NCBI GenBank assembly: GCA_028282785.1
Contig: JANQHE010000021.1
Location: 1-64,000, forward strand
Direction: 5' to 3'
Origin: Bacteroidales bacterium
GTDB taxonomy: Bacteria; Bacteroidota; Bacteroidia; Bacteroidales; UBA12077
Length of the DNA: 64,000 nucleotides
The number at the start of each line of letters is the position of its first letter. The stretch's first letter is position 1. Below the pieces are notes generated by a model. The model saw nothing but the letters and a program-made list of their open reading frames with translations. It was not told the DNA's origin and made no database searches. The translations under genes and the position numbers were made by a program. Below, one piece after another: positions 29,526 to 64,000 of the stretch.

Positions 29526-29558
29526 ATTGTATAAAAGACAATCTATAAAATTTATCAT

Positions 29559-30224: not shown

Positions 30225-30231
30225 AGATAAT

Positions 30232-31246: not shown

Positions 31247-31258
31247 GAGTTATTAAAT

Positions 31259-32701: not shown

Positions 32702-32711
32702 TGAGAATAAT

Positions 32712-33671
32712 ATGAAAAAGTTTATAAAAAGAGTAATAATACTGGTAGTGGTTATTTTTTTAATAGACTACTTATTTTCCCTGTTACTTGATTTTGGAAG
32801 GCCTGAAGATTACAAAGCTTTTATTGACAGTAAACTTAGTTATCAAAAATATAAAAAAGAAACTCAAATATTATTTATTGGAGACTCTCATACAGCAGAT
32901 GCTTTTGTTCCTTCTGAAATAAAAAAGTTAACTGGAAAAAATACGTTTAATTATGGAGTTTACCATATGTCGCCTGTTGAAGGATATTTTATTTTACAAG
33001 ATTTACTTAAAAGATCTAAAAGCCTGGAATATGTGGTTTTAGGTACAAATCCAACAATGTTTAATAGAAACGTAACTGAAGGAAAATATACACCTATGTT
33101 CATTAAGAATTATTTGGTTTTTTTAGAATTATTGACAGTTACCGAATGTAAAAATTTATCGGTGATTACTAGGTCAGGTAAAAAATTAGATCTTTTCTTA
33201 CCAATGATAAAAATTTTTTTTACAGGACATGAAAGTAAAACAGTCAGAAATATAAAAAATATTGACCGTGGCTATTTGGAAAATGTTAAAAACTATACGG
33301 ATATAAATGATTTGCATTGCAAAAACAAAATATATAAGAATTCTAAAAAAGTTATTCCTCTTCAGGTAGAATATTTTAATAAGTCAATACGTTTACTTAA
33401 GCAAAACAATATCATGGTTGTAATTGCTAATCCACCAATAAATCACATGTATATTGAAGACATAAAAAATACAAATGTTTATAAAAATTATAATTTTATA
33501 ATAGACAGTATTGCAAAGAATAATAATATTGAAATCTATAATCAAAATCAAATAAATAAGAATATAAACCTGATAAATGAAGATTTTTTAAATGGAGAAC
33601 ATTTGTGTTATACAGGGGCATTAAAGAATTCAACGGAATTTGCTAAATATTTTAATAATTTGTTTTTATAA
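32712..33671 (+). CDS. SGNH-fold membrane-anchored O-acyltransferase partner of MBOAT
   Basis: 319 residues from ATG 32712; an upstream in-frame ATG at 32658 lies inside the MBOAT gene. One N-terminal helix anchors it (about residues 5-24). ILFIGDSHTADAF gives the GDSH block with the nucleophilic Ser, and LNGEHLCYTGA near the end supplies the Glu/His of an SGNH triad. It should take the acyl group delivered by the MBOAT and put it on the glycan in the periplasm. Confidence 0.78.
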   Translation: MKKFIKRVIILVVVIFLIDYLFSLLLDFGRPEDYKAFIDSKLSYQKYKKETQILFIGDSHTADAFVPSEIKKLTGKNTFNYGVYHMSPVEGYFILQDLLKRSKSLEYVVLGTNPTMFNRNVTEGKYTPMFIKNYLVFLELLTVTECKNLSVITRSGKKLDLFLPMIKIFFTGHESKTVRNIKNIDRGYLENVKNYTDINDLHCKNKIYKNSKKVIPLQVEYFNKSIRLLKQNNIMVVIANPPINHMYIEDIKNTNVYKNYNFIIDSIAKNNNIEIYNQNQINKNINLINEDFLNGEHLCYTGALKNSTEFAKYFNNLFL

Positions 33672-33676
33672 ATTGA

Positions 33677-35170
33677 ATGGGTATAATAAAAAAACAATCT
33701 ATTAAAGGAGCTATTTATGCCTATATTGGGGTTATAATTGGATTTATTAATACCGGATTAATTTTTCCTAAAATATTATTAACTGAACAGATTGGATTAT
33801 TAAATATTCTGATATCTTATTCTTTGGTATTTTCCCAGTTAGCAAGTCTTGGATTTAATAATGCTACAACACGTTTATTTACATATTTTAGGGATTTTGA
33901 AAATAAGCATAATGGGTTTCTTTTTCTTTCTCTATCTGTTACTTTTTTAGGATTTTTACTGTCTTTTATTTTATTTATTATTATAAAACCGGTTTTAATT
34001 ACTAATACTGCTGAAACAACTAGCTTATTCAATGATAATATCTTTTATATTATTCCGTTGACCTTCTTTACACTTTTTTTTAATAATCTTGATAATTACT
34101 ATAAAGTTTTATTTAATGCGGTAATTGGTACATTCTTGAAAGAATTCTTTATTAGAATATTAATTCTAATAATTATAATACTCTATTATCTTAATATTTT
34201 AAATTTTAATCAATTCTTAATATTTTATGTTAGTTCATATTGTTTTCCGGCAATTATACTTGTAATATCATTAATAAAAGAAAAGCAATTTAATCTGTAT
34301 CCAAATTTAAAGTTTATTAATAAAGAGCTTCGAAAAGCATTAATAAACGTTAGTTTATTTGCAATAATATCCGGATTTGCAGGGATAGCGATTGCAAATA
34401 TCGATAAAATAATGATTAATCAACTAAATGGATTAAGTGATACAGGAATTTATTCAATAGCATTTTATTTTGGTACTCTAATAATAATACCTTCGCGGTC
34501 TTTGTTAAAAATATCATCAACATTTATTGCAGACTCATGGAAAACCAATGACCTAAAAACAATTCGTACAATTTATAATAAAAGTGCGATAAATCAAATG
34601 GCTATCGGATTGTTGATTTTTATAGGATTGGTTGCCAACTTAAATAATGTTTTTAAAATTCTTCCAGAACCATATTCAAAAGGAGAGTTTGTAATTTTAT
34701 TTATTGGTTTGGCTTTTTTAACCGATATGTCAACAGGTGTGGCACAGCAAATTGTGAGTACTTCCAAGTATTATAGATATCAATCATACTTTATGTTTGC
34801 ATTAATTTCTTTAATAATTATTACTAACCTCTATTTTATACCGAGATACGGAATTACAGGAGCCGCATTTGCATCACTTTTATCAAAAGTTGTTATTAAT
34901 ATAATTCGAATTTTATTTATATATAAAAAGTTTAAATTGTATCCTTACAATATAAAATTTGTTTTTACAATTTTGATAGGTATTATATCTTATATGATTA
35001 GTAGCTTAATTCCTGAATTAAGAAATATATACCTTGATATTATATTAAGAATTGGAACAATAAGTATTATTTTTATCCTTTTAGCTTATATTTTAAATAT
35101 TTCCGAAGAAATAAATAGTAAAGTGTTTAACATTTTTAATATTATTTTTCATAAAATAATTAATAAATAA
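33677..35170 (+). CDS. Wzx-type polysaccharide flippase
   Basis: 497 residues with about 14 predicted transmembrane helices and very AT-rich coding DNA. The start IIKKQSIKGAIYAYIGVIIGFINTG is typical of MOP-superfamily lipid-linked oligosaccharide flippases. It would flip the finished repeat unit on undecaprenyl phosphate to the periplasmic face. It is the last clear gene of the surface-glycan locus. A matching Wzy polymerase is not seen in the locus; an O-antigen-ligase-like gene lies at 46363. Confidence 0.88.
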   Translation: MGIIKKQSIKGAIYAYIGVIIGFINTGLIFPKILLTEQIGLLNILISYSLVFSQLASLGFNNATTRLFTYFRDFENKHNGFLFLSLSVTFLGFLLSFILFIIIKPVLITNTAETTSLFNDNIFYIIPLTFFTLFFNNLDNYYKVLFNAVIGTFLKEFFIRILILIIIILYYLNILNFNQFLIFYVSSYCFPAIILVISLIKEKQFNLYPNLKFINKELRKALINVSLFAIISGFAGIAIANIDKIMINQLNGLSDTGIYSIAFYFGTLIIIPSRSLLKISSTFIADSWKTNDLKTIRTIYNKSAINQMAIGLLIFIGLVANLNNVFKILPEPYSKGEFVILFIGLAFLTDMSTGVAQQIVSTSKYYRYQSYFMFALISLIIITNLYFIPRYGITGAAFASLLSKVVINIIRILFIYKKFKLYPYNIKFVFTILIGIISYMISSLIPELRNIYLDIILRIGTISIIFILLAYILNISEEINSKVFNIFNIIFHKIINK

Positions 35171-50221: not shown

Positions 50222-53200
50222 ATGAAAAATTTCCCTTTGTACAATATTGTTGTTGGCTGGATAGCATTCTTAATTGCTGCAATTGTTTATATGTTAACGA
50301 TTGAACCTACTGCTAGTTTTTGGGATTGTGGAGAATTCATAGCATCTGCATATAAATTAGAAGTTGGTCATCCTCCAGGTGCACCATTTTTTATGATCTT
50401 AGGTAGATTTTTTACAATTCTTGGAGGATCTCCCGAGAATGCTGCAAAAATGGTTAATATATTATCTGCTTTAGCTAGTGCCTTTACAATATTGTTCTTA
50501 TTTTGGACGATCACTCACTTTGTTCGTAAAATTGTTGTTAAAACAAATGAAGATTATACTCGTGGAAATATTATAACAATAATAGGGAGTGGATTAGTTG
50601 GTGCATTAGCCTATACTTTCTCGGACACTTTTTGGTTTTCAGCTGTTGAAGCGGAAGTTTATGCAACATCTTCATTATTTACAGCTGTTGTTTTTTGGGC
50701 TATTTTAAAATGGGAGAATGAATCTGACAAAAAATATGCTAATCGTTGGATTATTTTAATTGCTTATTTGATTGGACTTTCAATAGGAGTTCATTTATTA
50801 AACTTATTGGCAATTCCTGCAATAGTTTTTGTTTACTACTTTAAGAAATACCCGGTAACCAGAAAAGGAGTATTTTATGCATTAGTAATTTCCGGAATTT
50901 TGTTAGGATCAATTATGTATGTATTGATACCTGGTATTATAAAAGTAGCTTCGTGGTTTGATTTGTTATTTGTAAATGGTTTTGGATTACCATTTAACTC
51001 TGGAGTTATATTTTACGTAGCTGTTTTAATTTCATTAGTATTTTGGGGAATAAATTATACTCAGAGAAAGGGTAAAGTTGTTTATAATACCATTATATTG
51101 GGCATAACGGTAATCTTAATTGGATATTCTTCCTATGCAATGATTGTAATTCGGTCATCTGCAGATCCACCAATGGATCAAAATAATCCTGACAATGTTT
51201 TTGATTTACTTTATTATTTAAATCGAGAGCAATATGGTGATAGACCTCTATTTTATGGTCAGATTTTTGATGCTCCAATGGTTGATAATAAAGAAACAAA
51301 ACCAGTTTACATAAAGAAAAATGGAAAATATGTAATAGCAGATCATAAAATTGAAGTTGAATATGATGATCGATTCACAACTTTGTTCCCACGAATGTAT
51401 AGCCCGGATAATAACCATGTAAATGAATATAAAAAGTGGTCAAATCTTGATGGAGATGAAATTACGGTTAATTCAAGAGGTGGACAGGCAGAGAAAAGGA
51501 TAAAACCTTCATTTGGAGATAACTTAGGATTCTTTATTAGATATCAGGTAGGACATATGTACGTTAGATATTTCATGTGGAATTTCGCCGGGCGACAAAA
51601 TGATATTCAAGGGCACGGAAATGTTTTAAAAGGTAACTGGTTAAGTGGAATACCATTTATTGATAATGCAAGATTAGGTGACCAAAGTGATGTGCCGGAA
51701 CATTTGAAAAATAATCCTGCAAGAAATGAATATTACATGCTGCCGTTCATATTAGGATTGATCGGACTATTTTTCCATTACAAAAAGCATAAATATGACT
51801 TTACAATAGTATTAATGCTATTTATCTTAACGGGCTTGGCAATTGTTGTTTATTTAAACCAATATCCATTACAACCACGTGAACGGGATTATGCCTATGC
51901 AGGATCATTTTACGCATTTTCAATTTGGTTGGGGTTAGGAGTTGCAGGATTAATTGAGTTATTAAGTAAAAAGGTTCCAAAGGTAATTTCTGCCGTTATA
52001 GTTACTTTCATAACTTTAATAATGGTACCTGGAATAATGGCTTTTGAAAATTGGGATGATCATGATAGATCGGGTCGTTATACTGCAAGGGATTTGGCAT
52101 ATAATTATCTAAATTCATGTAAGGAGAATGCCATTTTATTTACAAATGGCGATAATGATACGTTCCCACTTTGGTATGCGCAGGAAGTAGAAGGTATTAG
52201 AACAGATATAAAGGTTTGTAATCTGAGTTATTTACGTGCAGCTTGGTATATCGATCAAATGAGCAGAAAATCATATGAATCTGAAAAACTTCCATTTTCA
52301 TTAACACATGAACAATACCACAGAGGGAATCGTGATATTTTACCGATTTACGACAGAGTTGACCAAGCGGTTGATGTAAAGGATGTGATGGAATTTATTG
52401 CAAGTGATGATCCGAAAACTAAAATAAAATCACCTTTTGTTGCTAATGAAACAATTAATTATATTCCAACTAAAAAGTTTAAACTGCAGATAGATGCTCA
52501 AGATGTATTGAATAAGGGTATTGTAAGTGAAAAATATGCAGATAGAATTGTGGATAAAATGGAATGGAGCTTTGGTCAGCGATATTTATATAAAGACGGA
52601 TTAATGCTACTTGATATGTTGGCAACTAATAACTGGGAGCGTCCAATTTATTGGGCAATGACAGTTTCAAGTTCAAAGTACTTTAATCTGCAGAAATATT
52701 TTAAAGTTGATGGTTTAACTTATCAATTGGTACCGGTATTGGCTGAGAATGAAAGGTTTTATAGCGGAGAAGTAGATTCGGATGTTATGTATGATAATAT
52801 TATGAACAAATTCCGTTGGGGTGGAATAGAAGAAAATGATATTTATTTTGACGAAAATAACATTCGAATGTTTTCTAATTTAAGAAGTAGTTTTGGCCGT
52901 TTAGCAGAAAAATTAATTAAAGAAAATAAGCGAGATTCTGCACTTAAAGTTCTTGATCGTTGTATGGAGTTATTTCCTGATCATAAAATACCATACAATA
53001 ACACTTTGATTTCTGTAATTTCAGCGTATTATCATGCAGGAGCATATGAAACTGCAAATGATTTAGTTCAGAAGTTATTGGATAAAGTAAGTGCAGAATT
53101 GGACTATTATTTTAGTTTAGGCCCAAAATATGCAAGAGGAACTAAAGACATGTCTAACGAAAAACAGTTAAATTTATATATTCTTCAGGAGCTTTATAAG

Positions 53201-53287
53201 GTTACCACCGATAATAATCAAACAGAGAAAGCAAAGGATGTTGAATTAAGGTTTATGAATTACATGCAATTATATAACAGTTATTAA
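50222..53287 (+). CDS. DUF2723 protein (protein O-mannosyltransferase-like membrane protein)
   Basis: 1021 residues. The N-terminal TIEPTASFWDCGEFIASAYKLEVGHPPGAPFF carries the acidic DCGE site of the GT-C fold and is diagnostic of DUF2723 in Bacteroidota. About ten or more helices run to about residue 620, with a large soluble region inserted (about 340-470), then a long C-terminal soluble part with TPR-like helices (about 890-1021). The family is thought to glycosylate exported proteins or lipids. The deacetylase starts 2 bases after it. Confidence 0.9.
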   Translation: MKNFPLYNIVVGWIAFLIAAIVYMLTIEPTASFWDCGEFIASAYKLEVGHPPGAPFFMILGRFFTILGGSPENAAKMVNILSALASAFTILFLFWTITHFVRKIVVKTNEDYTRGNIITIIGSGLVGALAYTFSDTFWFSAVEAEVYATSSLFTAVVFWAILKWENESDKKYANRWIILIAYLIGLSIGVHLLNLLAIPAIVFVYYFKKYPVTRKGVFYALVISGILLGSIMYVLIPGIIKVASWFDLLFVNGFGLPFNSGVIFYVAVLISLVFWGINYTQRKGKVVYNTIILGITVILIGYSSYAMIVIRSSADPPMDQNNPDNVFDLLYYLNREQYGDRPLFYGQIFDAPMVDNKETKPVYIKKNGKYVIADHKIEVEYDDRFTTLFPRMYSPDNNHVNEYKKWSNLDGDEITVNSRGGQAEKRIKPSFGDNLGFFIRYQVGHMYVRYFMWNFAGRQNDIQGHGNVLKGNWLSGIPFIDNARLGDQSDVPEHLKNNPARNEYYMLPFILGLIGLFFHYKKHKYDFTIVLMLFILTGLAIVVYLNQYPLQPRERDYAYAGSFYAFSIWLGLGVAGLIELLSKKVPKVISAVIVTFITLIMVPGIMAFENWDDHDRSGRYTARDLAYNYLNSCKENAILFTNGDNDTFPLWYAQEVEGIRTDIKVCNLSYLRAAWYIDQMSRKSYESEKLPFSLTHEQYHRGNRDILPIYDRVDQAVDVKDVMEFIASDDPKTKIKSPFVANETINYIPTKKFKLQIDAQDVLNKGIVSEKYADRIVDKMEWSFGQRYLYKDGLMLLDMLATNNWERPIYWAMTVSSSKYFNLQKYFKVDGLTYQLVPVLAENERFYSGEVDSDVMYDNIMNKFRWGGIEENDIYFDENNIRMFSNLRSSFGRLAEKLIKENKRDSALKVLDRCMELFPDHKIPYNNTLISVISAYYHAGAYETANDLVQKLLDKVSAELDYYFSLGPKYARGTKDMSNEKQLNLYILQELYKVTTDNNQTEKAKDVELRFMNYMQLYNSY

Positions 53288-53289
53288 AA

Positions 53290-53910
53290 ATGTTAAAAAA
53301 AGAACATATTGCTGCAAAAATCCTTAGAGACTTAACCTGGCATTTTGCAGGAAAAGACAATGAGCTTTTTTTGACTTTTGATGATGGCCCTACTCCTGAA
53401 ATCACACCTTGGGTACTTTCTACATTATCAGAGTATGACGCAAAAGCAACTTTTTTTTGTATTGGGGGCAAAGTAGAAAGAAATCCGCAACTTTATGATC
53501 AAATATTGGAAGAAGGACATTCAGTTGGAAATCATGGATACTTACATATGAATGGATGGAGAACAGGAACCGATAAGTATGTTAGAAATGTACATAGGGC
53601 GGCACATTTTATAAATTCTAATTTGTTCCGACCTCCATATGGAAGAATACGCCCTAAACAAATAACCCAATTAAAAAGAAAATTTAGAATTGTGATGTGG
53701 GATGTATTATCCGGAGATTATGATAAGAAAATTAATGAAGCTAGATGTTTGTACAATATTCTATCCTATGCTGAATCAGGGTCTATAGTTGTATTACATG
53801 ATAATGTGAAATCTGAGAAAAACCTAAAATATGTTCTCCCAAGAGTACTTGAGCATTTTACCGAAAAGAACTTTATTTTTAATCCAATAGAATATACAGA
53901 ACTAGATTAG
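53290..53910 (+). CDS. Polysaccharide deacetylase (NodB domain)
   Basis: 206 residues, essentially a bare NodB domain without a signal peptide. LTFDDGPTPE holds the catalytic Asp pair, GNHGYLH the metal-binding histidines, RPPYGRIRP the arginine motif and VLHDN the last catalytic His. It would remove N- or O-acetyl groups from a cell-envelope glycan or precursor. It converges with the lasso cluster's nucleotidyltransferase, overlapping its stop by 4 bases. Confidence 0.92.
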   Translation: MLKKEHIAAKILRDLTWHFAGKDNELFLTFDDGPTPEITPWVLSTLSEYDAKATFFCIGGKVERNPQLYDQILEEGHSVGNHGYLHMNGWRTGTDKYVRNVHRAAHFINSNLFRPPYGRIRPKQITQLKRKFRIVMWDVLSGDYDKKINEARCLYNILSYAESGSIVVLHDNVKSEKNLKYVLPRVLEHFTEKNFIFNPIEYTELD

Positions 53911-55076
53911 GACTTTTTACGAAAAAAAAACTTATAAATTATTAAAAAGGGCCTTAAAAAATAATAAAGAAAAAATTGCGAATCTTTTAGTTTTATTATT
54001 TCCCAATCGGACAGGTGAGTTCTAAGTCGAAATAATAATTCTCTGTAATAATCAGAATCTTTTTTAAGTTTTAACCTATACAAAACAAGCTTAAGCTTTC
54101 CTATAAATTTTTTTAGGTTGAGATCTGTAGTGTTTATTGAATTTAATGGAGTTCTTATTAAACCAGATTTTATTTTAGATTCAATAAAATTTATTTCTTT
54201 AGTATTATAAATCTTATTCGAAAGTATACAAGCCTGGGCAAATGTTTTATCCAGTTTTAGTTTTTTAGATAGGTTGAAAGCAGATTTTAATTCACTTTCA
54301 TCGCTTTTTGTAATTAAAACAGAAAAATCTTTTAACCAAAATAATCTATACCACTGATGAACACTTCCATGAGCTGCTTGATAAACTAAGTTTTCAATTT
54401 TAGATATATAAGGTAATTCGTAATTTGAAACCTTCAGATTTTGTTTGTTAAAAATGATGTTATTTGTTTCCAATCCTAAAAATGATTTAGGATTGGTTAT
54501 ATTCCAATGGAGTTCAATCTCAACTCCTTGAATTGAATGTACAAAATGATAATGATGACTTATACTGTAATTGACTTTTTTTTGTTTCTCCGTTAATTTT
54601 ACTCTAGGGTATACGCAAGTAAAATTGAAATCTTCAATGATTTCTTTTGCCTTTTCAACATTGCTAATATTTACTAAAACATCAATATCTCTGAAATTTC
54701 TATAACCTATATCATTGTATAAATCGATTGAAAGCAAAGGTCCTTTAAAGAAACAATGATCTATGTTTTGCTCATTAAATTCCTCATGAATCCTTATAGC
54801 ATGTATTGCAAAGTTTAAAGCACGTTTCGAATGTTCTAATCTGATTTCGATTAAATTTTCATAAACCGGGATTGGTATTTTTTCTGCTAAAAAAGTTGAA
54901 TGTTTTAATATATGCGATACTACCCTGTGTTTAATGGCAAGCTCCAGGAATATATCCCAGTCTATTTTGGTTAGATCTCCTTGATAGCTGCTTTCTAGAT
55001 TATTTTGTGTTAGGTAAATTATCAGTTTAAGTTCTTCTGAAAATTTTGAACTTATATAGTTTTTTATTTGATTCAT
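53907..55076 (-). CDS. Nucleotidyltransferase-fold protein of lasso-peptide clusters (PF14907-like)
   Basis: 389 residues. FFKGPLLSIDLY followed by NFRDIDVLV (Asp130 and Asp132) matches the metal-binding DxD of the NTP_transf_5 family, which accompanies lasso-peptide and exopolysaccharide genes. As I recall, a relative in the pseudomycoidin cluster (PsmN) acts on the phosphorylated C-terminus of the peptide and adds sugar. It overlaps the upstream cyclase by 4 bases, so both form one minus-strand operon. A role in tailoring the peptide is inferred from position. Confidence 0.78.
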   Translation of the reverse strand: MNQIKNYISSKFSEELKLIIYLTQNNLESSYQGDLTKIDWDIFLELAIKHRVVSHILKHSTFLAEKIPIPVYENLIEIRLEHSKRALNFAIHAIRIHEEFNEQNIDHCFFKGPLLSIDLYNDIGYRNFRDIDVLVNISNVEKAKEIIEDFNFTCVYPRVKLTEKQKKVNYSISHHYHFVHSIQGVEIELHWNITNPKSFLGLETNNIIFNKQNLKVSNYELPYISKIENLVYQAAHGSVHQWYRLFWLKDFSVLITKSDESELKSAFNLSKKLKLDKTFAQACILSNKIYNTKEINFIESKIKSGLIRTPLNSINTTDLNLKKFIGKLKLVLYRLKLKKDSDYYRELLFRLRTHLSDWEIIKLKDSQFFLYYFLRPFLIIYKFFFRKKS

Positions 55077-56938
55077 TTGAACAATGATGGATTATTTTCA
55101 ATAAACAGAATTAATTTCAAATAGTTATAAAATGCCCCAGGGTTTATATATCGATAATTTTTTTTTGATCTTGTACGTAATTTATTAAACCATTGTTCGT
55201 ATTTATTTAAATCAATGTATTGGGTAATTAATTTATTTGATTTTGCTCTTTTAATTACTTCAAGAATTTGTTCCGAATCATTAACCATTCGCATATGAAC
55301 AGTTGGAATCGTTGCTCCACTTTTATCGTTTCTCCATTGAATTTTTTCAGGCACAATCCCCTCAGTGGCTCTGCGAATAATATATCTTCCTATTCCATTT
55401 CGTGCTTTCAATCGGGTAGGAACTGATAAATAAAATTCAATTAACCGAATATCAAGTAGTGGGTATCTATATTCGATACCGTATTTTCTTGCTATCAAAG
55501 AACAATACTCTAATCGTTGAGAAACATGTGGATGAGCGATTCTCTTAATGTTTTTTTGCTGCACTCCAAGTATATCTAATTTTTTATAATTTGAATAATA
55601 TCTTTCCTTGATATTAAGTTTTTCTGCAAAGTATTTATTAATCGCAAGGTTTTTTAATTTGTAGGTCCACCAAGGTTTCTGATATCTCAGTTTACGAACT
55701 TTTGGGAAACGAGATTTTAAGTATATTTTGATATACGTTTTTAAGTATTTGAAGTAATTAGGATTTTGATTTTTGAGATCAACTTTTAGTTCTTCCCATT
55801 TTTTATTAACAGCCAATTCTTTTAAATATCCCGAAGATTTTGAAGTAACGACTTCATCTCCTCCAAAACCTGATAATAAAACTGTAACATTTTCTTGATT
55901 GGCTTTTTCATAAAGCTGATCAGAAAATATTCCAAAGTTCTGTTGAAATAAACTTTTGGTATTAACAATATTTTCTTTTAAAGTTTTTAACAAGGACTCT
56001 TCTGAACTTACAAAATTTTGACTTTCGATTTTGCAGTGATCAACTAGAAGGTTTATAAAAACTCGTTCATCTTTAAAGGGATAAATCTTCCCCAATTTAT
56101 GATCTGGTAAAATATGCGAAAAAGATTTGATAGGCTTAATGCTCGAGGCTATTGAAGTAACGCATGAAGAATCAATTCCACCACTTAATTCGGCACCAAC
56201 TGATTCCATGTGTTTGATTCGGCAATTTACAGATTCAAACAGAAGAAATTTAAATTCATTAATTATATCAACATCTTTTTTTTGAATTTCCTTTTTTGGG
56301 TTTAATTCCCAATATGATTTTACCTCAACCTTATTATTTTTTAATATCAAAATATGAGCCGGAGGTAATTTTTTAATTTCGGTATAAGTTGTTCGAAATT
56401 TTTCTGATTTTACAATAGAAATTGTATCGGCAACTTGTTGATTATCAATTGAAAAAATTAGATCGGTTTGTTCTAAAATACCAGAGACATCTGTTGAAAA
56501 AACAAATGAATCTTTATTAAAATAATAATGCAAAGGTTTTACTCCCAAATGATCACGGGCACAGAAAAGTTCTTCTGTATTTGAATCCCAAATAACGAAG
56601 CCAAAATCACCAATAAAGTGATTTACACATTTTTCACCCCATCTCTCATATGATTTCAGAATGAGAAGATCATCACTAATTTCCTCATTAATTTGTAAAT
56701 CCTGAATAATTTCATTTCTGTTATATATTACCGAATCGGAAACAAGAATTAAACCTGAATATAGTAATTTCTCATCTTTAAAGGGAGGAAAAACGATTTG
56801 TCCAAAACCTGTTTGATTTTCTATCGAGAATTGAGGTTTACTTTTAGAATAAATAGAAAGTTTTTCAATGCTATTCTCAAAAAGTTCCCGATTTATAGGT
56901 TTTTTGTTAAGGTTAATTCTTCCAAATACAGATCGCAT
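55073..56938 (-). CDS. Lasso peptide cyclase (asparagine synthetase B homologue, LarC/McjC-type)
   Basis: 621 residues. The N-terminal class II amidotransferase-like domain (about 1-200) lacks the catalytic Cys2: the protein starts MRSVFG, so it cannot use glutamine. The C-terminal ATP-pyrophosphatase domain has the SGGIDSS loop at 252-258, and LSGFGGDEV and EYRYPLLDIRLIEFY further on. In lasso systems this enzyme adenylates the side-chain carboxylate at core position 7-9 and forms the macrolactam with residue 1. Cluster context (PqqD-like protein, transglutaminase-like protein, small precursor) favours cyclase over true asparagine synthetase. Confidence 0.88.
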   Translation of the reverse strand: MRSVFGRINLNKKPINRELFENSIEKLSIYSKSKPQFSIENQTGFGQIVFPPFKDEKLLYSGLILVSDSVIYNRNEIIQDLQINEEISDDLLILKSYERWGEKCVNHFIGDFGFVIWDSNTEELFCARDHLGVKPLHYYFNKDSFVFSTDVSGILEQTDLIFSIDNQQVADTISIVKSEKFRTTYTEIKKLPPAHILILKNNKVEVKSYWELNPKKEIQKKDVDIINEFKFLLFESVNCRIKHMESVGAELSGGIDSSCVTSIASSIKPIKSFSHILPDHKLGKIYPFKDERVFINLLVDHCKIESQNFVSSEESLLKTLKENIVNTKSLFQQNFGIFSDQLYEKANQENVTVLLSGFGGDEVVTSKSSGYLKELAVNKKWEELKVDLKNQNPNYFKYLKTYIKIYLKSRFPKVRKLRYQKPWWTYKLKNLAINKYFAEKLNIKERYYSNYKKLDILGVQQKNIKRIAHPHVSQRLEYCSLIARKYGIEYRYPLLDIRLIEFYLSVPTRLKARNGIGRYIIRRATEGIVPEKIQWRNDKSGATIPTVHMRMVNDSEQILEVIKRAKSNKLITQYIDLNKYEQWFNKLRTRSKKNYRYINPGAFYNYLKLILFIENNPSLFK

Positions 56939-57014
56939 TTTTCCTTTTATGTAAAGATAAGTAATTTACTAAGTACCTTTAAATACTGAAAGGAAGATTT
57001 TATCTATTTTTCAA

Positions 57015-57022
57015 TAAATTTG
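57015..57022 (+). promoter_or_regulatory. Candidate -7 promoter element for the kinase-to-precursor operon
   Basis: TAAATTTG is a full TAnnTTTG match, 18 bases upstream of ATG 57040, giving a leader of about a dozen bases. On the opposite strand TATCTTTA (56952-56959) is a 7-of-8 match that could serve the divergent cyclase operon. -33 elements are not obvious. Confidence 0.45.
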
Positions 57023-57039
57023 TGTTAGTTTGCACTAAA

Positions 57040-57936
57040 ATGAAAAAGAATTATATATATAAAGCATTTGGGTTAATCTTTAATTCGGATTTTAAGATTC
57101 CGGAACTATTGATAGGATCTGGTAATCCGGATGTGAACATCGAATTGGGAAAAACCCCAAATCAACTGCAAAAAATCACCAAAAAAGGGGTGAAATATGA
57201 AGCAACTAAAAATGAGTTTTTGCTACAAGTTGATCACATTGCAAAATATTATGTTCGAGACGGTGAAAAGATAATCATACAATTATTAAAAGATAAAGTT
57301 GATAAAGAGGTTAGGTTATTTTTGCTGGGTTCCGTATTTGGTTCTCTTTTTCTTCAACGTGGGTTGTTACCGGTTCATGGCAGTAGCATTAAATTCAAAA
57401 ACTCGGCAACTATATTTACAGGTCTAAGTGGTGTTGGAAAATCAACTATAGCTGCCCATTTTATAAAATTGTCCTATCGGGCTTTAGCAGATGATATTAG
57501 TGTTGTGAATCAGCATTTAGAGGTTGTTCCGGGTTTTCCTGGCTTAAAAATTTGGAGTGATGTTTTGGATAAACTAGAAATCAATAATCAGAATTTAAAT
57601 GAAATACGACCAAACATTAAAAAGTTTCATGTGCCAATCAATGAGCAATATTATTCAGAACCAGTTCCATTGAAAAATATTGTCATACTTAATACTAAGA
57701 ATTCTACAGGATTTGAAATTGAAGAGTTAATAGGAATTAAAAAATTTAACGCAATTAAAAATAATACCTATCGATATAGATTTGTTCAGGGACTCGAAAA
57801 ACAGCTTGCTCATTTTCAAATTCTTAATAAACTTTTGCCTGCGATAAAGGTTTACAAAGTTTCAAGGCCGCAGGCACCATTATCATTGAATGAGTTTGGT
57901 AATTTTTTATTAAGTAATATTGATTTAAATGCCTAG
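57040..57936 (+). CDS. HPr-kinase-like kinase of the lasso cluster (PadeK/ThcoK-type)
   Basis: 298 residues from ATG 57040; an upstream GTG would overlap the promoter box. LPVHGSS (His113) leads to Walker A GLSGVGKST (128-136), then RALADDISVV (about 147-156), which is the layout of the HPr kinase catalytic core. The rest of HPrK/P, including the hexamer-forming N-terminal domain, is different. Lasso-cluster kinases of this kind (PadeK, ThcoK) phosphorylate the C-terminal Ser of the precursor. The precursor here does end in Ser. It overlaps the sulfotransferase by 8 bases. Confidence 0.85.
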   Translation: MKKNYIYKAFGLIFNSDFKIPELLIGSGNPDVNIELGKTPNQLQKITKKGVKYEATKNEFLLQVDHIAKYYVRDGEKIIIQLLKDKVDKEVRLFLLGSVFGSLFLQRGLLPVHGSSIKFKNSATIFTGLSGVGKSTIAAHFIKLSYRALADDISVVNQHLEVVPGFPGLKIWSDVLDKLEINNQNLNEIRPNIKKFHVPINEQYYSEPVPLKNIVILNTKNSTGFEIEELIGIKKFNAIKNNTYRYRFVQGLEKQLAHFQILNKLLPAIKVYKVSRPQAPLSLNEFGNFLLSNIDLNA

Positions 57937-58795
57937 AAAGAATATTATATGGTTAGCTAGCTATCCAAAATCAGGTAATACCTGGTTCCGGGTTTTCCTT
58001 ACAAATTTATTATATGAAACGGATAATCCGGCTAATATCAATGATCTTGCAGAAACTTCAATTTCAAGCTCAAGAAAAGTTTTTGATGATTATACCGGAC
58101 TCTCATCTTCTGATCTTACTTTTGAAGAGATTGATAAATTACGTCCTGATGTATATCGAATACAATCGGAAGAATCCAATGAGCTTTTATTTAAAAAAGC
58201 TCATGATAAATTTTATTGGGTGGATAAAAATCAACCTCTCTTTCCTCCGGAAATTACAAAAGGCGCTATTTATTTTATTCGTAATCCTTTGGATGTTTTA
58301 GTTTCGTTTGCATATCACAGTGCAAAACCGGTTTATAAAATGATTTCATCTATTAATGATTCTAACTATGCTTTTTGCGATAAGAATGATAAATTACAAA
58401 ACCAGTTAAGACAAATACTAGGAAGTTGGTCTGATCATGCAGTTAGTTGGATCAACCAGGATTTAATTCCAATCCATATCATGAGATATGAAGATATGGT
58501 CAATAATACTTTTAATACTTTTAAACAAGTTGTACAATTTATTGGATTGGAAAAGTCGGATAAACAGATAAAAATAGCAATAGCAAAAAGTAGTTTTTCG
58601 GTATTATCAGAACAGGAAAAAAGAGATGGTTTTAGGGAAAAAATGATTCGCACAAAATCTTTTTTTCGTAAAGGACAAATAGGTGATTGGAAAAACCACT
58701 TAAATGAACAGGAAGTGAAAAAAATTGTTTACAATAATAAAGAAATTATGTTGAAATTCAGATACTTGGATAGTAATTACAAACCAATATTTTAA
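57929..58795 (+). CDS. PAPS-dependent sulfotransferase in the lasso operon
   Basis: 288 residues. The phosphosulfate-binding loop is YPKSGNTWF (residues 12-20), the probable catalytic base is His92 in KKAHDKF, RNPLDVLVSF is the 3'-phosphate contact, and FRKGQIGDWKNHL near the C-terminus is the RKGxxGDWKN motif. It is a complete cytosolic-type enzyme (PF00685). It lies between the kinase (8-base overlap) and the PqqD-like gene (0 bases), so it is firmly part of the operon. The two tail tyrosines, the hydroxyl groups or the phosphorylated end of the peptide are possible acceptors. Confidence 0.9.
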   Translation: MPRKNIIWLASYPKSGNTWFRVFLTNLLYETDNPANINDLAETSISSSRKVFDDYTGLSSSDLTFEEIDKLRPDVYRIQSEESNELLFKKAHDKFYWVDKNQPLFPPEITKGAIYFIRNPLDVLVSFAYHSAKPVYKMISSINDSNYAFCDKNDKLQNQLRQILGSWSDHAVSWINQDLIPIHIMRYEDMVNNTFNTFKQVVQFIGLEKSDKQIKIAIAKSSFSVLSEQEKRDGFREKMIRTKSFFRKGQIGDWKNHLNEQEVKKIVYNNKEIMLKFRYLDSNYKPIF

Positions 58796-59086
58796 ATGGC
58801 TAAAGTTAAATTAACTGAAAATACTTTTATAAAAAGAAATGATAACATACTTGCCAGTGATTTGGACGGAGAAAAAGTTATGATGAGTATCCAAAAAGGT
58901 GAGTATTATGGCTTGGGAAAAACAGGAACTTTCATTTGGAATCACATCGAAGATTTTATATCAATTAATGATTTAGTAACTTTAATTACGGAAAAATATA
59001 ACGTAACAAGAGAGCATTGTTTAGAGGATATAGTACCATTTTTAACAGACCTTATTGAAAAAGAGCTTATTATTGCAACCAATTAG
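58796..59086 (+). CDS. PqqD-like leader-recognition protein (lasso B1)
   Basis: 96 residues with a winged-helix RiPP recognition element. LASDLDGEKVMMSIQKGEYYGLGKTGTFIW (about 19-48) is the typical PqqD/B1 pattern, with the L-G-x-x-G-x-x-I-W core. It would bind the precursor's leader through the W-x2-P-x-L motif and present it to B2 and the cyclase. The ATG directly follows the sulfotransferase stop. Split B1/B2 organisation is normal outside the classic proteobacterial lasso clusters. Confidence 0.88.
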   Translation: MAKVKLTENTFIKRNDNILASDLDGEKVMMSIQKGEYYGLGKTGTFIWNHIEDFISINDLVTLITEKYNVTREHCLEDIVPFLTDLIEKELIIATN

Positions 59087-59116
59087 AGTTTTATTACGTT
59101 TAAATTATGAACATTA

Positions 59117-59557
59117 ATGATGTTCAGGCAAATAAGGAAATATTACAGCATAGATAAAACGGAACGTAAAATCTTGAATCGAATTTTTCTTTGGTTAATT
59201 TATGCTTTTGTACTGGTTCGACTAATGCCCTTAAAATGGTTTAATTCAGTTTTAGGGGAATTTAGGAAAGAGGCTGAAGTTAATTTAAATAATAAACAGC
59301 TTCAGTTAATTCATATGGTAAAAAAAAATATAAGGAGAATAAAAAAACGTTTACCCTGGGAAGTTAAGTGTTTTGAAGAAGCAATAACTGCGAAGAAATT
59401 GTTGGAAGTTTTTAACATAAAATCAACACTTTTTTTAGGCATAACCCGAGGGAATGAAAAGAACCTGAAAGCCCACGCCTGGTTAAAAAGTGGAGATTTA
59501 TTTATTAGCGGAGAGAGTGGTTATAGTAATTTTGTAGTAGTTGGCTTTTATAGTTGA
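59117..59557 (+). CDS. Transglutaminase-like leader peptidase (lasso B2, PF13471)
   Basis: 146 residues; ATG 59117 or the next codon. Catalytic triad Cys85 (WEVKCFEEA), His120 (KAHAWLK) and Asp127 (SGDLFI) are at the spacing expected of the lasso B2 family. It cuts the leader from the core just before cyclisation. A hydrophobic stretch near residues 21-37 is seen. It lies 30 bases after B1 and 67 bases before the precursor ATG. Confidence 0.9.
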   Translation: MMFRQIRKYYSIDKTERKILNRIFLWLIYAFVLVRLMPLKWFNSVLGEFRKEAEVNLNNKQLQLIHMVKKNIRRIKKRLPWEVKCFEEAITAKKLLEVFNIKSTLFLGITRGNEKNLKAHAWLKSGDLFISGESGYSNFVVVGFYS

Positions 59558-59624
59558 TTATAGGACATTTATTAAAGATTATAAAAATTGCATTAAATTT
59601 GATCTAAAATTGAAAAATAGCGAG

Positions 59625-59774
59625 ATGATGAATGAAGAGAATGTAAATAAAGAAACTAATCAACAATACAATAAGTTGGATTGGGAAGCACCAAAACTTT
59701 ATTGTCTTGATAAAGGAAGAACAGAGGGTGGATCACTTTCGCCCGGGGCTGAAGATACCGTATATTATTCTTAA
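59625..59774 (+). CDS. Candidate lasso peptide precursor, C-terminal Ser
   Basis: 49 residues from ATG 59625 (48 from 59628); an upstream in-frame TTG would overlap B2. The leader contains Trp20-x2-Pro23-x-Leu25, a version of the Y-x2-P-x-L motif recognised by B1, then Gly31 and Thr33. Thr33 is at position -2, as lasso peptidases require. The core would be GGSLSPGAEDTVYYS (codons 59727-59771). Gly1 can be linked to Glu9, the only acidic residue at positions 7-9, leaving a six-residue tail with two tyrosines and a final Ser. My calculated neutral monoisotopic mass for the cyclised core is about 1483.65 Da before tailoring. Confidence 0.82.
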   Translation: MMNEENVNKETNQQYNKLDWEAPKLYCLDKGRTEGGSLSPGAEDTVYYS

Positions 59775-59791: not shown

Positions 59792-62700
59792 ATGGTAAAA
59801 AAAATATGTATAGTAGCAATAATATTATTATCCAGTTTGTGGATATTTGCTCAGGATTTCTCACTAACAAACAACCTTTCATCATCTGATAATATTAATA
59901 TTCAGGAGTCTGCATTAGTCTCCGATGGATTTGTTGTATTTGGGAATTTCAGAGGAACTTTAAATGACCCGCCATATTCAACTGCCAGCAGTTTTGATAT
60001 GTTCCTTGCTAAATTTGACTTAAGTTTTAATTTAATTTGGTTAGATACAATTGGTGGAGCTGGTATTGATTTTGCTTATGATATGGCAGTTACGGCAAAT
60101 GAAGATATACTGATCGTAGGAGCGTTCCGGGATGATTGTAAATTCAATGGAACAACATTAAACTCTGCTGGAAATTATGACAGTTTTATAGCACGGTATT
60201 CTTCTAATGGTTCATTAATTTGGGCGAGAAATATAGCAACAAATGATGCTGCGCAACTTGCTACGGCTGTCGATGAAGATAAAAACACAGATATTATTGT
60301 TGCAGGATATTATACCGATTCTATCAGATTTGAAAATGGGACTTCTTATACCAATCCAAACAGTGGCATATATATTGTAAAATTGAACCAAGATGGTAAT
60401 TTGAATTGGACAACTTTGTATGAGAGAAATGATAATAAGTCAAGGATTTATTCGCTCGATGAATTTAGCGATGGGTACTATTTCTCTGGGAATTTTTTAG
60501 ATACAGTTGATTTTCAAATTACAGAAATTGGAAGCGTTAATCAAACCACAACAGATGTATTTGTACTAAAAACAAATTATTCTGGTTATCCACAATGGGT
60601 CAGAAGATCGTATGGTGATGGAAATACAAATGCAGGAATAATGACTCAGGATATACATGGGAATATTTATTTTACAGGGTATTACGAAGGAACGTATTTA
60701 GAGAATGATTCAACAGAAAGTTTAAAAGCAAATAAAGTATTAGGTAATAATGGAGATAGTGATATTTTCTTGACCAAATATAATAAAGATGGTAATTTAA
60801 TTTGGGCAAAAGAATATGGAGAGGCCGGAAGTGACTGGGCAAGAGGGATTAAGTATCAAAATGATTTTTTATATTTATCTGGCTATTTTTCTGATTCTTT
60901 AGTTTTTGGGAATGATATTATTAAATCAACAGGAATTGGAGATGTTGATGCGTTTATAGGAATGGTTGATGTTGATGGGGTTACTTTAAAAGCAGTAAGC
61001 GTCGGGTCAAGTGATGGCGAAGATTCTGGAACAAGTATATCATCGGATAGTGAAAACAATGCATACTGGGGCGGATATTATAAATCTACAAGCTTTACAA
61101 TAGGAGATAGTACATACATTAACCCTGTTTCAGGAAAATCAGAAGTATTTATTGCAAAATATAAGCCACCATTTATTGGGGCAGTTACAAAAACAACTGA
61201 TATAACTTGTATGGGAGAAGAGGATGGTGAGATTATTGTAACCCCTTATTTTGGAGTTCCGCCATTTAGTTATTCGTGGAGTCACAATGCAATGTTAAAT
61301 GATTCTACGGCTACTGGCTTAGGGGCAATGAGTTATTCTGTTACCATAACAGACGCCATTGATTCTACGGTTGTGGTTAATTATGATTTAACAGATCCTG
61401 ATAGTATAAGTTTTAATCCTGTAATTACGAATGTTTCCACTTGTAGTTATAGCGAAGAGGCAGTAATTAATTTGAACGCGGCAGGAGGAAATGGAGGATA
61501 TACTTATCAATGGCAAGCAAGTGAAGGAGGTTATGGAATTGTTTTAAGTGCAGAGGATCAATCTGGTTTGACCATAGGAAGATATGATGTAACAATTACT
61601 GATTCTAAATCCTGTACGAATGATACAAGCATTTATATAACAGGGCCGGATCCAGTAACTTTTGGAGGTTCTGTTGTAACCGATTCTTCAGGAATTAATC
61701 CGGGCGCTATTGATTTGGTATATATTGGCGGGTATGGAGACCCGTCATCATTTGCTTTTGATTGGACCGGCCCATCGGGCCCTCCGGAAACACACTCAGA
61801 AGATACAACAAATTTAAGCCCGGGAAATTATAGTGTAACAGTAACCGATGTTCATTTTTGTGAGTTTGATACTACTTTTAACGTAGCAAACCTTGACACA
61901 TTTTATATATTTATCTCGGATCAAAAAGATGCATGTAACGGGACAATAAATGGCAGCGCAACAGTCTCGTATTATTCACCAAAAGGACACACTGTAATTA
62001 GCTATTTGTGGGATGTCAATGCAGGGAGCCAAACAACCGCTCAAGCAACAGGTCTTGCTCCGGGACGATACTATCAGGTAACGGTTACGGACACGGAAAA
62101 TACTCCAAATACAGTTTTAGTTGATAGTGTATATATAGATGAGTTGACATATGTATTTGCAGGGTCTTTATCGGGAACAACAACTTTAGATTGTTATGGA
62201 GATTCTACAGGGTATATAGATTTAACGATTAATACTGCTGGAACATTGCCTTATTCTTATAGTTGGAGCAACGGTTCGACACTTCAGGATTTAACTGATC
62301 TTAAGATAGGGAGTTACAGTGTAACAGTTACAGATATATATGAATGCGAATTTTCTATAACAAATTATACTATTGATCAACCAACTGAATTAACCGCATC
62401 GGTAGAAAAACTTAGCGATCCATCTTGTTACGGAAGTTTAAATGGAGAACTTACTGTTGATAGAAACGGAGGAACATTGCCTTACACATATATTTGGGAT
62501 GATCCGGCCGCACAAGATACTAAAGATGCCATTAATTTAGGGGCTGGAACTTATAATGTAACAGTTACTGATTTTAACAATTGTACAACTACCTCTAGTG
62601 CTCAGTTAATAGAACCGGATGTAATTAGTATTGCACAAGATGTAGTAAATGAAGCATGTAATGCAGCAGCGGAAGGAGCAATTACTTTAACAGTTACCGG

Positions 62701-64000
62701 AGGAACAACACCATTTGCTTATTCGTGGACAACTATTGGCGGGTCGGGATTATCGCCGGCTAATAAAAATCAAAGTGGACTAACCGCGGGTAAATATTAT
62801 TTTACTGCTACAGATAATAACAATTGTATGTTTGAGGATAGTGCAGAAATAACAGAACCTACTGTGTTACAAATTACTGATGAAACAAAAATAGATGTAA
62901 CTAATTGTAATGGATATAATACCGGAACAATTACCATTGTTGCTACAGGAGGTACAGGTTCTTTAACATATACACTAAATCCTGGGGCAGTACAAAGCAA
63001 TAGTACAGGAATATTTACAGGTATCGGTGCCGGGAGTTATACTGTAGATGTGGAAGATCAAAATGCATGCGTTACTACTTCAAACTTAATGGAAATTACA
63101 GAACCAACTGCAATCATTATTACTGAAGATGAGGTTAATGATGCTATTTGTAATGGAGAAAACGATGGAAGTGTTGAAATTTCCGTTTCAGGAGGTACAG
63201 TTACAACAAGTTATGGTTATACTTGGTCGACAACGGATGGTTCCGGGTTAATACAGGATATTGAGGACCAGCTTGGTATAGGTGCCGGAACTTACTATTT
63301 AACAGTTACAGATGATAATTCATGCGAGGTAATTACAAACTTTGTATTAAATGAGCCAGACACGATTATTCTTTCAAAAACAGTTTATAATCCTTCGTGT
63401 AACGGTGATAATGATGGTTCTATAGTTTTAAATCACACAGGAGGAGAAGTCCCGTTTTCATATTATTGGACAACAACCGATGGTAGTGGGCTACAACCAG
63501 TAAATAGGAACCAGGGAGGATTAACTGCTGGCACTTACTATTTGGAAGTTACAGATGCTTTAGATTGTATAATTAATGATACGATTACAATTACCACACC
63601 ACCTACAATTACGATAGATACTCAAAATTCAACAGACGCAACGGATTCAAATACAGCAGATGGAACAATTACGGTAACAGCTTCAGGAGGAACCGGTACA
63701 TTAACTTACCTATTAAAACCTGATAATATTTCAAACCAGACCGGTGCTTTTAATTCAGTTCTGCCAGGTGAATATGTAGTAGAAGTTGATGATATTTATT
63801 TTTGCGGGCCAATAATTACGGATACTATTACTGTTGGGGCGATTAATTCTATTGATTTGATTTTTGCAGGAGACTTTATCAAAATATATCCTAACCCTAC
63901 ATCAGACAAGGTATTTGTGGAAATAGATATGAATGGTACCTTTAATTTAGAATTTGCTAGTATGTCTGGACAAATCTTATATCAGGATGAAATAGTCGCA
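59792..64000 (+). CDS. SprB-repeat, T9SS-sorted giant surface protein (3' end beyond the window)
   Basis: Open from ATG 59792 to the right edge, 1403 codons without a stop. A signal peptide ends after IFAQ (about residue 21). Next is a beta-propeller region (about 25-460) with SBBP-like blades such as FLAKFDLSFNLIW and FLTKYNKDGNLIWAKEYG. About eleven SprB-type repeats follow (about 470-1345), each with a Cys near the start, a GGT-PYxYxW strand and an ending like GTYxVTVTDxNxC. The T9SS type A sorting domain begins at IYPNPTSDKVFVEI and is cut off by the window end. SprB-like adhesins serve gliding or attachment. It begins 17 bases after the lasso precursor. Confidence 0.9.
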   Translation, partial: MVKKICIVAIILLSSLWIFAQDFSLTNNLSSSDNINIQESALVSDGFVVFGNFRGTLNDPPYSTASSFDMFLAKFDLSFNLIWLDTIGGAGIDFAYDMAVTANEDILIVGAFRDDCKFNGTTLNSAGNYDSFIARYSSNGSLIWARNIATNDAAQLATAVDEDKNTDIIVAGYYTDSIRFENGTSYTNPNSGIYIVKLNQDGNLNWTTLYERNDNKSRIYSLDEFSDGYYFSGNFLDTVDFQITEIGSVNQTTTDVFVLKTNYSGYPQWVRRSYGDGNTNAGIMTQDIHGNIYFTGYYEGTYLENDSTESLKANKVLGNNGDSDIFLTKYNKDGNLIWAKEYGEAGSDWARGIKYQNDFLYLSGYFSDSLVFGNDIIKSTGIGDVDAFIGMVDVDGVTLKAVSVGSSDGEDSGTSISSDSENNAYWGGYYKSTSFTIGDSTYINPVSGKSEVFIAKYKPPFIGAVTKTTDITCMGEEDGEIIVTPYFGVPPFSYSWSHNAMLNDSTATGLGAMSYSVTITDAIDSTVVVNYDLTDPDSISFNPVITNVSTCSYSEEAVINLNAAGGNGGYTYQWQASEGGYGIVLSAEDQSGLTIGRYDVTITDSKSCTNDTSIYITGPDPVTFGGSVVTDSSGINPGAIDLVYIGGYGDPSSFAFDWTGPSGPPETHSEDTTNLSPGNYSVTVTDVHFCEFDTTFNVANLDTFYIFISDQKDACNGTINGSATVSYYSPKGHTVISYLWDVNAGSQTTAQATGLAPGRYYQVTVTDTENTPNTVLVDSVYIDELTYVFAGSLSGTTTLDCYGDSTGYIDLTINTAGTLPYSYSWSNGSTLQDLTDLKIGSYSVTVTDIYECEFSITNYTIDQPTELTASVEKLSDPSCYGSLNGELTVDRNGGTLPYTYIWDDPAAQDTKDAINLGAGTYNVTVTDFNNCTTTSSAQLIEPDVISIAQDVVNEACNAAAEGAITLTVTGGTTPFAYSWTTIGGSGLSPANKNQSGLTAGKYYFTATDNNNCMFEDSAEITEPTVLQITDETKIDVTNCNGYNTGTITIVATGGTGSLTYTLNPGAVQSNSTGIFTGIGAGSYTVDVEDQNACVTTSNLMEITEPTAIIITEDEVNDAICNGENDGSVEISVSGGTVTTSYGYTWSTTDGSGLIQDIEDQLGIGAGTYYLTVTDDNSCEVITNFVLNEPDTIILSKTVYNPSCNGDNDGSIVLNHTGGEVPFSYYWTTTDGSGLQPVNRNQGGLTAGTYYLEVTDALDCIINDTITITTPPTITIDTQNSTDATDSNTADGTITVTASGGTGTLTYLLKPDNISNQTGAFNSVLPGEYVVEVDDIYFCGPIITDTITVGAINSIDLIFAGDFIKIYPNPTSDKVFVEIDMNGTFNLEFASMSGQILYQDEIVA

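Follow-up and report, generated by a model that had tools for sequence, protein, structure and literature searches.

A Bacteroidales lasso peptide gene cluster with predicted kinase, sulfotransferase and nucleotidyltransferase tailoring, and the linkage of its precursor gene to a gene for a predicted type IX-secreted surface protein

We analysed a stretch of 64,000 nucleotides from a Bacteroidales bacterium (contig JANQHE010000021.1 of assembly GCA_028282785.1, positions 1 to 64,000; hereafter the window) and found a complete lasso peptide cluster of the split-B type at 53907–59774. Its seven open reading frames (ORFs) are followed by F6, a gene for a predicted surface protein of the type IX secretion system (T9SS). 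The lasso cluster itself is of a known, little-studied kind. The surprising part is the constancy of F6, which stays beside the precursor gene (A) at places where the enzymes lie elsewhere. Since precursor and F6 recur as a two-gene unit, it appears likely that the peptide and F6 work together. The proposal as a whole, comprising an intact lasso operon, a capped C-terminal Ser and a peptide working with F6, strikes us as quite probable. The linkage offers a concrete candidate partner for an orphan peptide class and could lead to precursors that escape cluster-based mining.

F6 (59792–64000, plus strand, running past the window end) starts 17 bp after the stop codon of the precursor. The initial annotation had placed the end of the cluster at 59774; this had to be revised, as the operon runs on by one gene. 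A profile search with F6 in 393 genomes of the order revealed F6-like genes in 98 of them, and the upstream regions of 60 matches were fetched, ten of which were shorter than 2.5 kb, so that precursors could be missed there. A lasso-like precursor was located directly upstream in 13 of the 60 regions, and 11 of these 13 precursors end in Ser. Altogether, lasso precursors directly upstream of F6 were found at 38 places under 13 family labels (L106, L110, L111 and L125 being unlabelled loci). At 34 of 67 F6 matches the precursor ended −11 to +44 bp (33 matches) or 119 bp (one match) before the F6 start, and four further places showed distances of about 72 bp (L082), 20 bp (L193), 30 bp (L210) and 230 bp (L223). 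The adjacency count started from 36 rows with a W..P ORF, of which L068 and L224 (one place, gap 341) were not lasso-like and were rejected by eye. Duplicate loci (L104, L105, L114, L133, L142, L160, L163 and L178) were removed before the precursor, F6/exporter and adjacency counts, and L103 was also removed before the latter.

Only one of the 13 pairs from the fetched regions (L184) resided inside a lasso locus, while the other 12 were on a contig other than that of the leader-binding protein B1 and the leader peptidase B2 or, in genome G037, about 21 kb from B1. At five of the 12 places (G147, G261, G330, G337 and G037) no other lasso enzyme was present in the 18–20 kb around the pair; in G391 and G168 the pair sat on contigs of only 5 or 7 kb. 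In G147, for instance, the precursor–F6 pair, B2, and a group of kinase, B1 and sulfotransferase genes occupied three contigs. A search for B1 covered 33 genomes with an F6 match and two without. Lasso B1 scored at least 54 bits in all 13 genomes with a precursor–F6 pair from the fetched regions. In 18 genomes the F6-like gene lacked a recognised precursor; 16 of these had no B1 above 40 bits, and the other two, G033 and G063, scored high. Within the order, B2 occurred in 24 of 35 genomes with F6 at 250 bits or more versus 23 of 358 others (Fisher test, 2e-17). This value overstates the association: the F6 profile derives from copies that adjoin a precursor, the 250-bit limit was fixed after the fact, and the genomes were counted with no correction for kinship. 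Among 19 genomes of the genus, F6 reached at least 285 bits in 11, each with a lasso cluster and each beside the precursor, and no more than 54 bits in the other eight, including the B2-bearing G778.

Several observations weigh against a general coupling of this kind. About 30 of the 67 F6 matches had no recognised precursor, some of them in lasso genomes (L188, L190, L191, L194, L195, L201 and L208), and at L059, L061, L212 and L243 (L059 and L243 stemming from one genome) F6 stood near a cyclase, again with no recognised precursor. Furthermore, a cyclase gene lay directly upstream of the pair at five of the 12 distant places (G254, G053, G331, G262 and G043), where the precursor is therefore not enzyme-free; the idea that all 12 distant pairs are free of enzymes was thus ruled out. 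Finally, F6 was missing from 77 of 101 loci with both kinase and sulfotransferase, which indicates that F6 is not required by the chemistry. Of the best 80 of 586 loci containing relatives of the sulfotransferase, eight had F6; seven came from Bacteroidales and the eighth lies on a short contig titled Calditrichia, suggesting that the coupling is a Bacteroidales trait and not part of the core chemistry. We also considered F6 as a substitute for the usual ABC exporter. This idea appeared weak: an exporter gene lay within 1.5 kb in none of 24 F6 loci versus 15 of 77 kinase and sulfotransferase loci without F6 (p 0.02, with kinship uncorrected and an exporter model built from five Bacteroidota sequences).

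The cyclase–precursor–F6 arrangement without B1 and B2 was recorded as a three-gene unit in five genomes (L263, 8041–14347; L264, 13085–18589; L265, 3–3916; L266, 8525–15326; L267, 15710–19147).

The F6 protein is predicted to carry an N-terminal SBBP/DUF5122 β-propeller and SprB repeats. Searches with hidden Markov models (HMMs) matched SprB at 4.8e-66 and DUF5122 at 7.7e-5, the latter below the cut-off. The open frame comprises 1442 aa in genome G000. No sorting-domain match was obtained for the copy in the window, which is cut off by the window end before a full sorting domain, and its signal peptide was assessed by visual inspection only; the T9SS sorting-domain model TIGR04183 was passed by six of six longer F6 homologues scanned, and a T9SS sortase scored over its cut-off in 13 of 13 genomes. 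F6 homologues share their domains with T9SS type A substrates bearing SprB repeats and SBBP propellers and pass the corresponding sorting-domain models. The predicted propeller structure (predicted local distance difference test, pLDDT, 88) was closest to CylK, a likeness that fits the modelled propeller fold and says nothing of F6 function.

Within the genus, F6 evolves differently from the enzymes beside it. Mean identity among the 12 same-genus clusters was 43% for the F6 propeller versus 59–74% for the enzymes. Distances between the sulfotransferases followed the cyclase distances (Mantel r 0.73, p 0.001), while F6 distances did not (r 0.20, p 0.21). Judged from the sequences, this would fit F6 diverging or being exchanged separately from the enzymes. 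The faster divergence of F6 and the recurrence of the precursor–F6 pair apart from B1 and B2 could also be explained if the lasso peptide were antimicrobial and F6 conferred immunity to it or served as its receptor, with the propeller binding the peptide outside the cell. However, core and F6 similarity did not covary in the 12 same-genus genomes (Mantel r −0.03, p 0.61), a result that lacks any signal of core–propeller coevolution and thereby speaks against a partnership of peptide and F6 as well. Moreover, SBBP/SprB proteins are common surface proteins, as the matches in 98 of 393 order genomes illustrate, and we know of no lasso immunity protein of the F6 type. We regard an immunity or receptor function as rather unlikely.

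The initial annotation had recognised a lasso-type cluster for a ribosomally synthesized and post-translationally modified peptide (RiPP) with a kinase, a sulfotransferase and a nucleotidyltransferase, and HMM searches recovered all of these families at the positions it had assigned. The lasso-specific NCBIfam cut-offs were exceeded by B1 and B2, PF00685 and PF14907 matched strongly and Hpr_kinase_C weakly. The AsnB-like macrolactam cyclase (C; 55073–56938, minus strand) matched PF00733 (3.1e-42) and GATase_7 (2e-22). Its best match was the lasso cyclase model NF033535 with 391 bits versus 232 bits for the asparagine synthase model TIGR01536, which argues against a true asparagine synthetase; on the other side of the balance, 391 bits lie under the NF033535 cut-off of 525. 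As noted before, Cys2 is lacking (N-terminus MRSV), and it is missing from all 12 same-genus cyclases too. The cyclase has an S-G-G-x-D-S motif, and residues S252, G254, D256, S257 and D496 were present in 45 of 45 homologues. B1 (58796–59086, plus strand) is indeed a PqqD-like leader-binding protein (PqqD 4.1e-17; NF033536 96 bits, cut-off 80), and B2 (59117–59557, plus strand) a transglutaminase-like Cys protease (PF13471 6e-16; NF033537 72 bits, cut-off 33) with the proposed catalytic residues Cys85 and His120 each found in 70 of 70 aligned homologues. Lasso B2 was detected in 47 of 393 genomes of the order sample (45 above the cut-off) and in 17 of 395 genomes of the class sample. Taken together, the sequences indicate that the product of the cluster is almost certainly a lasso peptide.

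The precursor (A; 59625–59774, plus strand) comprises 49 aa with a 34-aa leader ending in WEAPKLYCLDKGRTE and the core GGSLSPGAEDTVYYS. Both the W-x2-P-x-L motif and the Thr at position −2 that had been claimed could be read in the sequence, along with Gly1 and Glu at core position 9 (TE–GGSLSPGAE). The mass of the predicted lasso was computed as 1483.647, in agreement with the 1483.65 Da given earlier. Of 20 genomes of the genus, 13 contained B2; one of these (G778) showed only B1 and B2 in the fetched stretch, and the other 12 represent the clusters compared here. Kinase, sulfotransferase, B1, B2, cyclase, nucleotidyltransferase, precursor and F6 were all present in 12 of 12 clusters (the window's included), so that the precursor proved to be conserved wherever the enzymes were retained. 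The recurrence of the precursor pattern between B2 and F6 in all 12 clusters demonstrated that it did not arise by chance.

While the same-genus leaders are almost invariant (WEAPKLxCLDKGKTE, with Thr at −2 in 12 of 12), the cores are hypervariable apart from the GG start (11 of 12), Glu8 or Glu9 (11 of 12) and the C-terminal Ser (12 of 12), the latter being the only tail residue common to all of them. To look beyond the genus, a pattern search was applied to the 101 kinase and sulfotransferase loci; 41 loci yielded 47 precursor candidates, some of which (e.g., L136, L149 and L155) may be false, and L080 and L099 failed the pattern and were read separately. Ser was the last residue of 37 candidates and Thr of five. 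Kinase loci without sulfotransferase gave four precursors, two ending in Ser and two in Val, a number too small for a control comparison. Two features do not conform to the Ser-capped, Glu9-closed picture: five of the 47 candidates end in neither Ser nor Thr (e.g., L077 in Leu, L067 in Cys, L110 in Asn), and locus L080 of the same genus has Glu at core position 10.

Some loci deserve mention for their precursors. In L099 (1739–1927), a sister-genus precursor reads WSKPRIQVLSINSIKN followed by GDYPGNSESNTYLGTHVGS, with Ile in place of Thr at −2; in this it resembles the Ile −2 case of PMC10368454 (accessible part). The kinase and sulfotransferase cluster L089 (16100–19740) contains four precursor candidates ending in YRT, YRS or QRT, and L127 (11857–12430) and L158 (3611–4430) each contain several candidates.

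The three tailoring genes belong to two divergent, tightly overlapping operons, as initially described: nucleotidyltransferase and cyclase overlap by 4 bp on the minus strand, kinase and sulfotransferase by 8 bp on the plus strand. The kinase (K; 57040–57936, plus strand), an HprK-type lasso peptide kinase, gave an Hpr_kinase_C match of 1.1e-5 (25.5 bits, below the Pfam cut-off of 33.3), and its best match among PDB sequences was HprK at an E-value of 0.018. Residues H113, K134, D151 and D152 were found in 50, 52, 51 and 49 of 52 homologues, respectively, and match the H-K-D-D motif of lasso kinases (accessible part of PMC9266682). By analogy, K very probably acts on the C-terminal Ser. At L047 (6752–9440) and L056 (6707–9436), the sulfotransferase lies between two kinase homologues. 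The first homologue lacks the second Asp of H-K-D-D at both loci (SDG) and, at L047, also the His, so that it may serve the sulfotransferase as a pseudo-kinase partner.

The sulfotransferase (S; 57929–58795, plus strand; PF00685 1.8e-28) is of the cytosolic SULT type, with best solved relatives at 4e-15. SYPKSGNTW, K90, H92, R118-N-P and S126 were invariant in 30 aligned rows. We take these stretches to be the 5′-phosphosulfate-binding (5′-PSB) and 3′-phosphate-binding (3′-PB) motifs for 3′-phosphoadenosine-5′-phosphosulfate (PAPS) and the catalytic His (K90-x-H92). Adenosine-5′-phosphosulfate (APS) kinase, which is needed for PAPS, was encoded in 12 of 12 same-genus genomes. Of 14 lasso-positive genomes searched, 11 encoded a lasso-type sulfotransferase, the exceptions being G337, G037 and G043; none of 12 lasso-negative genomes did. 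Genome contigs were scanned with the sulfotransferase alignment, and the best 80 of 586 relatives were kept. Among these 80, a kinase homologue was present at 73 loci; at 67 of these it passed a strict rule demanding that it immediately precede the sulfotransferase on the same strand. Homologues of B1, B2 or the cyclase (one or more) occurred at 68 loci. The 80 included loci from Bacteroidota, Chloroflexi, Acidobacteria, several Proteobacteria, Verrucomicrobia and Petrachloros, presumably a cyanobacterium. This spread indicates that the kinase–sulfotransferase pair is a widespread lasso module and not special to Bacteroidota. With the C-terminal Ser as the most constant shared feature of the peptides, such a cross-phylum pair makes the question of sulfation testable. 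A 3.4 kb contig titled Calditrichia (L106, 1–3438) encodes a sulfotransferase 74% identical to that of the window together with B1, B2, a precursor and F6; the contig was probably binned in error.

On balance, S probably acts on the peptide or its cap. An obvious alternative to the cap would be a Tyr-O-sulfated lasso tail, with Tyr13 or Tyr14 of the VYYS end modified independently of the C-terminal phosphate and sugar. Many SULT-type enzymes act on phenols, the two Tyr residues adjoin the C-terminus of the window core, and Tyr is contained in 30 of the 47 candidate cores and in nine of the 12 same-genus cores. However, 17 of the 47 candidates are Tyr-free, as are the cores of L052, L079 and L084, although the sulfotransferases are at least 66% identical to one another within the genus, and S is tied to a kinase homologue at 73 of the best 80 of 586 loci. 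We thus rejected Tyr as an obligatory sulfation site as a general rule and consider the sulfated Tyr tail unlikely. With three of 12 cores lacking Tyr, the C-terminal Ser cap is the better shared target, and we give an even chance to the assumption that S acts on the cap and not on Tyr.

The nucleotidyltransferase (N; 53907–55076, minus strand; PF14907 2.3e-46) is a PsmN-like tailoring candidate. K111, D130, D132, H236 and D250 were conserved in 40 of 40 homologues, with D130 and D132 representing the Pol-beta D-x-D motif. Comparison with PDB sequences gave no useful match; the AlphaFold model (pLDDT 92) adopts a Pol-beta nucleotidyltransferase fold. Fold matches with E-values up to 0.001 were MenT1 and a Paracoccidioides nucleotidyltransferase-like protein, followed by LnuA (0.002), ANT(2″)-Ia (0.02) and FKRP (0.03). 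FKRP transfers a phospho-alditol, and its presence among the fold matches suggests that N may transfer a nucleotide or a phospho-sugar. Searches of whole genomes detected PF14907 in 23 of the 25 examined (weakly in G160); in G261, G063, G125, G168, G362, G058 and G792 it was encoded elsewhere in the genome although not in the fetched locus. Its absence from G391 and from G253 (66% complete) weighs against the proposed route.

Further candidates for tailoring were noted near lasso genes of other families: L037 (4725–7362), L050 (14981–16767), L069 (12388–15030) and L070 (5041–7693) each contain two to three copies of Phage Tail Collar (PF07484) and formyltransferase-like proteins, the latter being possible tailoring enzymes (Pfam run: one L037 collar protein and the L037 and L050 formyltransferases).

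The gene families, the catalytic residues, their conservation, the C-terminal Ser rule and the precursor–F6 linkage are read directly from the sequences. We infer the chemistry of K, N, B1, B2 and C by analogy with known relatives (for K and N, those in the accessible parts of PMC9266682 and PMC8498205) and propose the following steps, whose order is purely conjectural. B1 would bind the leader in the WxxPxL region and present the precursor, K would phosphorylate the C-terminal Ser of the linear precursor, and N would build on the Ser phosphate by adding a sugar as PsmN does. S would then introduce a sulfate, most likely into the same Ser-phosphate-sugar cap, a site that is conjectural as well. 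B2 would cleave after Thr-Glu, and the cyclase would join Gly1 to Glu9; without its decorations, the threaded 15-mer would have a mass of 1483.65 Da. By an export route that is likewise conjecture, the peptide would reach the cell surface and most likely work there with F6, the T9SS-displayed propeller/SprB protein, as ligand, cargo or modulator, F6 thus being assigned a role by pure inference. A caveat for all of these steps is that the peptide, its activity and its export are known here from genes alone. As a tentative generalisation, Bacteroidales lasso peptides of this type might be made in the cytosol, have their C-terminal Ser capped by a sulfated phospho-sugar and have as partner a T9SS propeller protein encoded beside each precursor. 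Precursor–propeller or cyclase–precursor–propeller cassettes would then share one set of B1, B2 and tailoring enzymes acting in trans. If true, this would represent a new mode of lasso peptide function, in which the peptide serves a type IX-secreted protein as a ligand at the surface, as cargo or as modulator.

Alternatively, K, S and N could modify another partner (F6, a lipid or a glycan of the cell surface, for example) and merely be co-regulated with the peptide. F6 and the polysaccharide genes of the genome would offer possible targets, and the chemistry of S is predicted only. Yet those relatives of K and N that have been characterised modify the C-terminal Ser of lasso peptides (accessible part of PMC9266682), kinase–sulfotransferase pairs accompany lasso genes in many phyla with no F6 found there, and this Ser is the sole tail residue common to the 12 same-genus cores, so that modification of another partner appears quite improbable. 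The remaining explanation, that F6 is merely the next gene and its adjacency an accident of synteny, agrees with the region being syntenic as a whole within the genus but is very improbable and was rejected, given precursor–F6 pairs away from B1 and B2, an adjacency under 13 family labels with gaps mostly of −11 to +44 bp and the co-occurrence of F6 (at least 250 bits) with B2 across the 393 order genomes (kinship uncorrected).

Among known systems, the paeninodin clusters of Bacillota (PadeK/ThcoK) resemble the window in their HprK-type kinase with the H-K-D-D motif, their Ser-ending precursor and the split B1/B2 (accessible parts of PMC9266682 and PMC8498205). Unlike in paeninodin, the kinase gene of the window overlaps a sulfotransferase gene, a T9SS propeller gene follows the precursor, and no ABC exporter gene was found adjoining the cluster. 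Pseudomycoidin (kinase PsmK and PsmN) shares with the window the combination of a kinase and an annotated nucleotidyltransferase; in the PsmN pathway, a hexose is added to the phosphorylated C-terminal Ser, according to the available portion of PMC9266682. The window, in contrast, adds a sulfotransferase, and its nucleotidyltransferase is likened to PsmN by shared annotation only.

The initial annotation had called the combination of three tailoring enzymes in Bacteroidota little explored. Such clusters are little studied indeed, but the kinase–sulfotransferase pair is known, occurs in many phyla and is already in print: lasso clusters containing HPr kinase and sulfotransferase genes were described in PMC4289311 and by Zhu et al. 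(via PMC8498205), as far as the accessible text of these sources goes, from Gram-positive anaerobes and Firmicutes, whereas the window represents Bacteroidota. In the accessible parts of the literature on sulfotransferase lasso clusters we found no mention of Bacteroidota, a C-terminal Ser rule or a T9SS partner. A putative lasso cluster has been reported in Amoebophilus asiaticus, also of the Bacteroidota (PMC8831229, accessible part); compared with the window by description only, it has no kinase, sulfotransferase or T9SS partner named in that text. Rumen mining gave complete lasso clusters only in Firmicutes (PMC7533575, accessible part), and in a Bacteroidales RiPP mining paper the word 'lasso' is confined to the glossary and a reference (PMC10352776). 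Likewise, the accessible part of a 2022 review of lasso modifications contains no word beginning with 'sulfo' (PMC9266682). In the partly accessible literature searched, no sulfated lasso peptide was found, sulfation being predicted only, and no T9SS substrate was tied to a RiPP precursor; nor did we find a paper combining 'lasso peptide' with 'type IX secretion' in a search made mostly without subscription papers.

Promoter-like sites numbered 14 versus 16.2 in shuffled sequences, and terminator-like sites four versus 1.3. Beside the cluster, at 50222–53910, are genes for a membrane protein of about 1000 aa and a polysaccharide deacetylase. The same pair was observed near lasso loci L033, L035, L042, L043, L049, L052, L055, L062, L075, L076 and L077, which belong to several families. 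The shared neighbours make the site look syntenic, and the cluster is perhaps vertically inherited there. Further upstream, at 18492–35170, translations judged by eye resembled glycosyltransferase, sugar-acid synthase, AMP-ligase, MBOAT and flippase proteins, probably representing a surface polysaccharide cluster.

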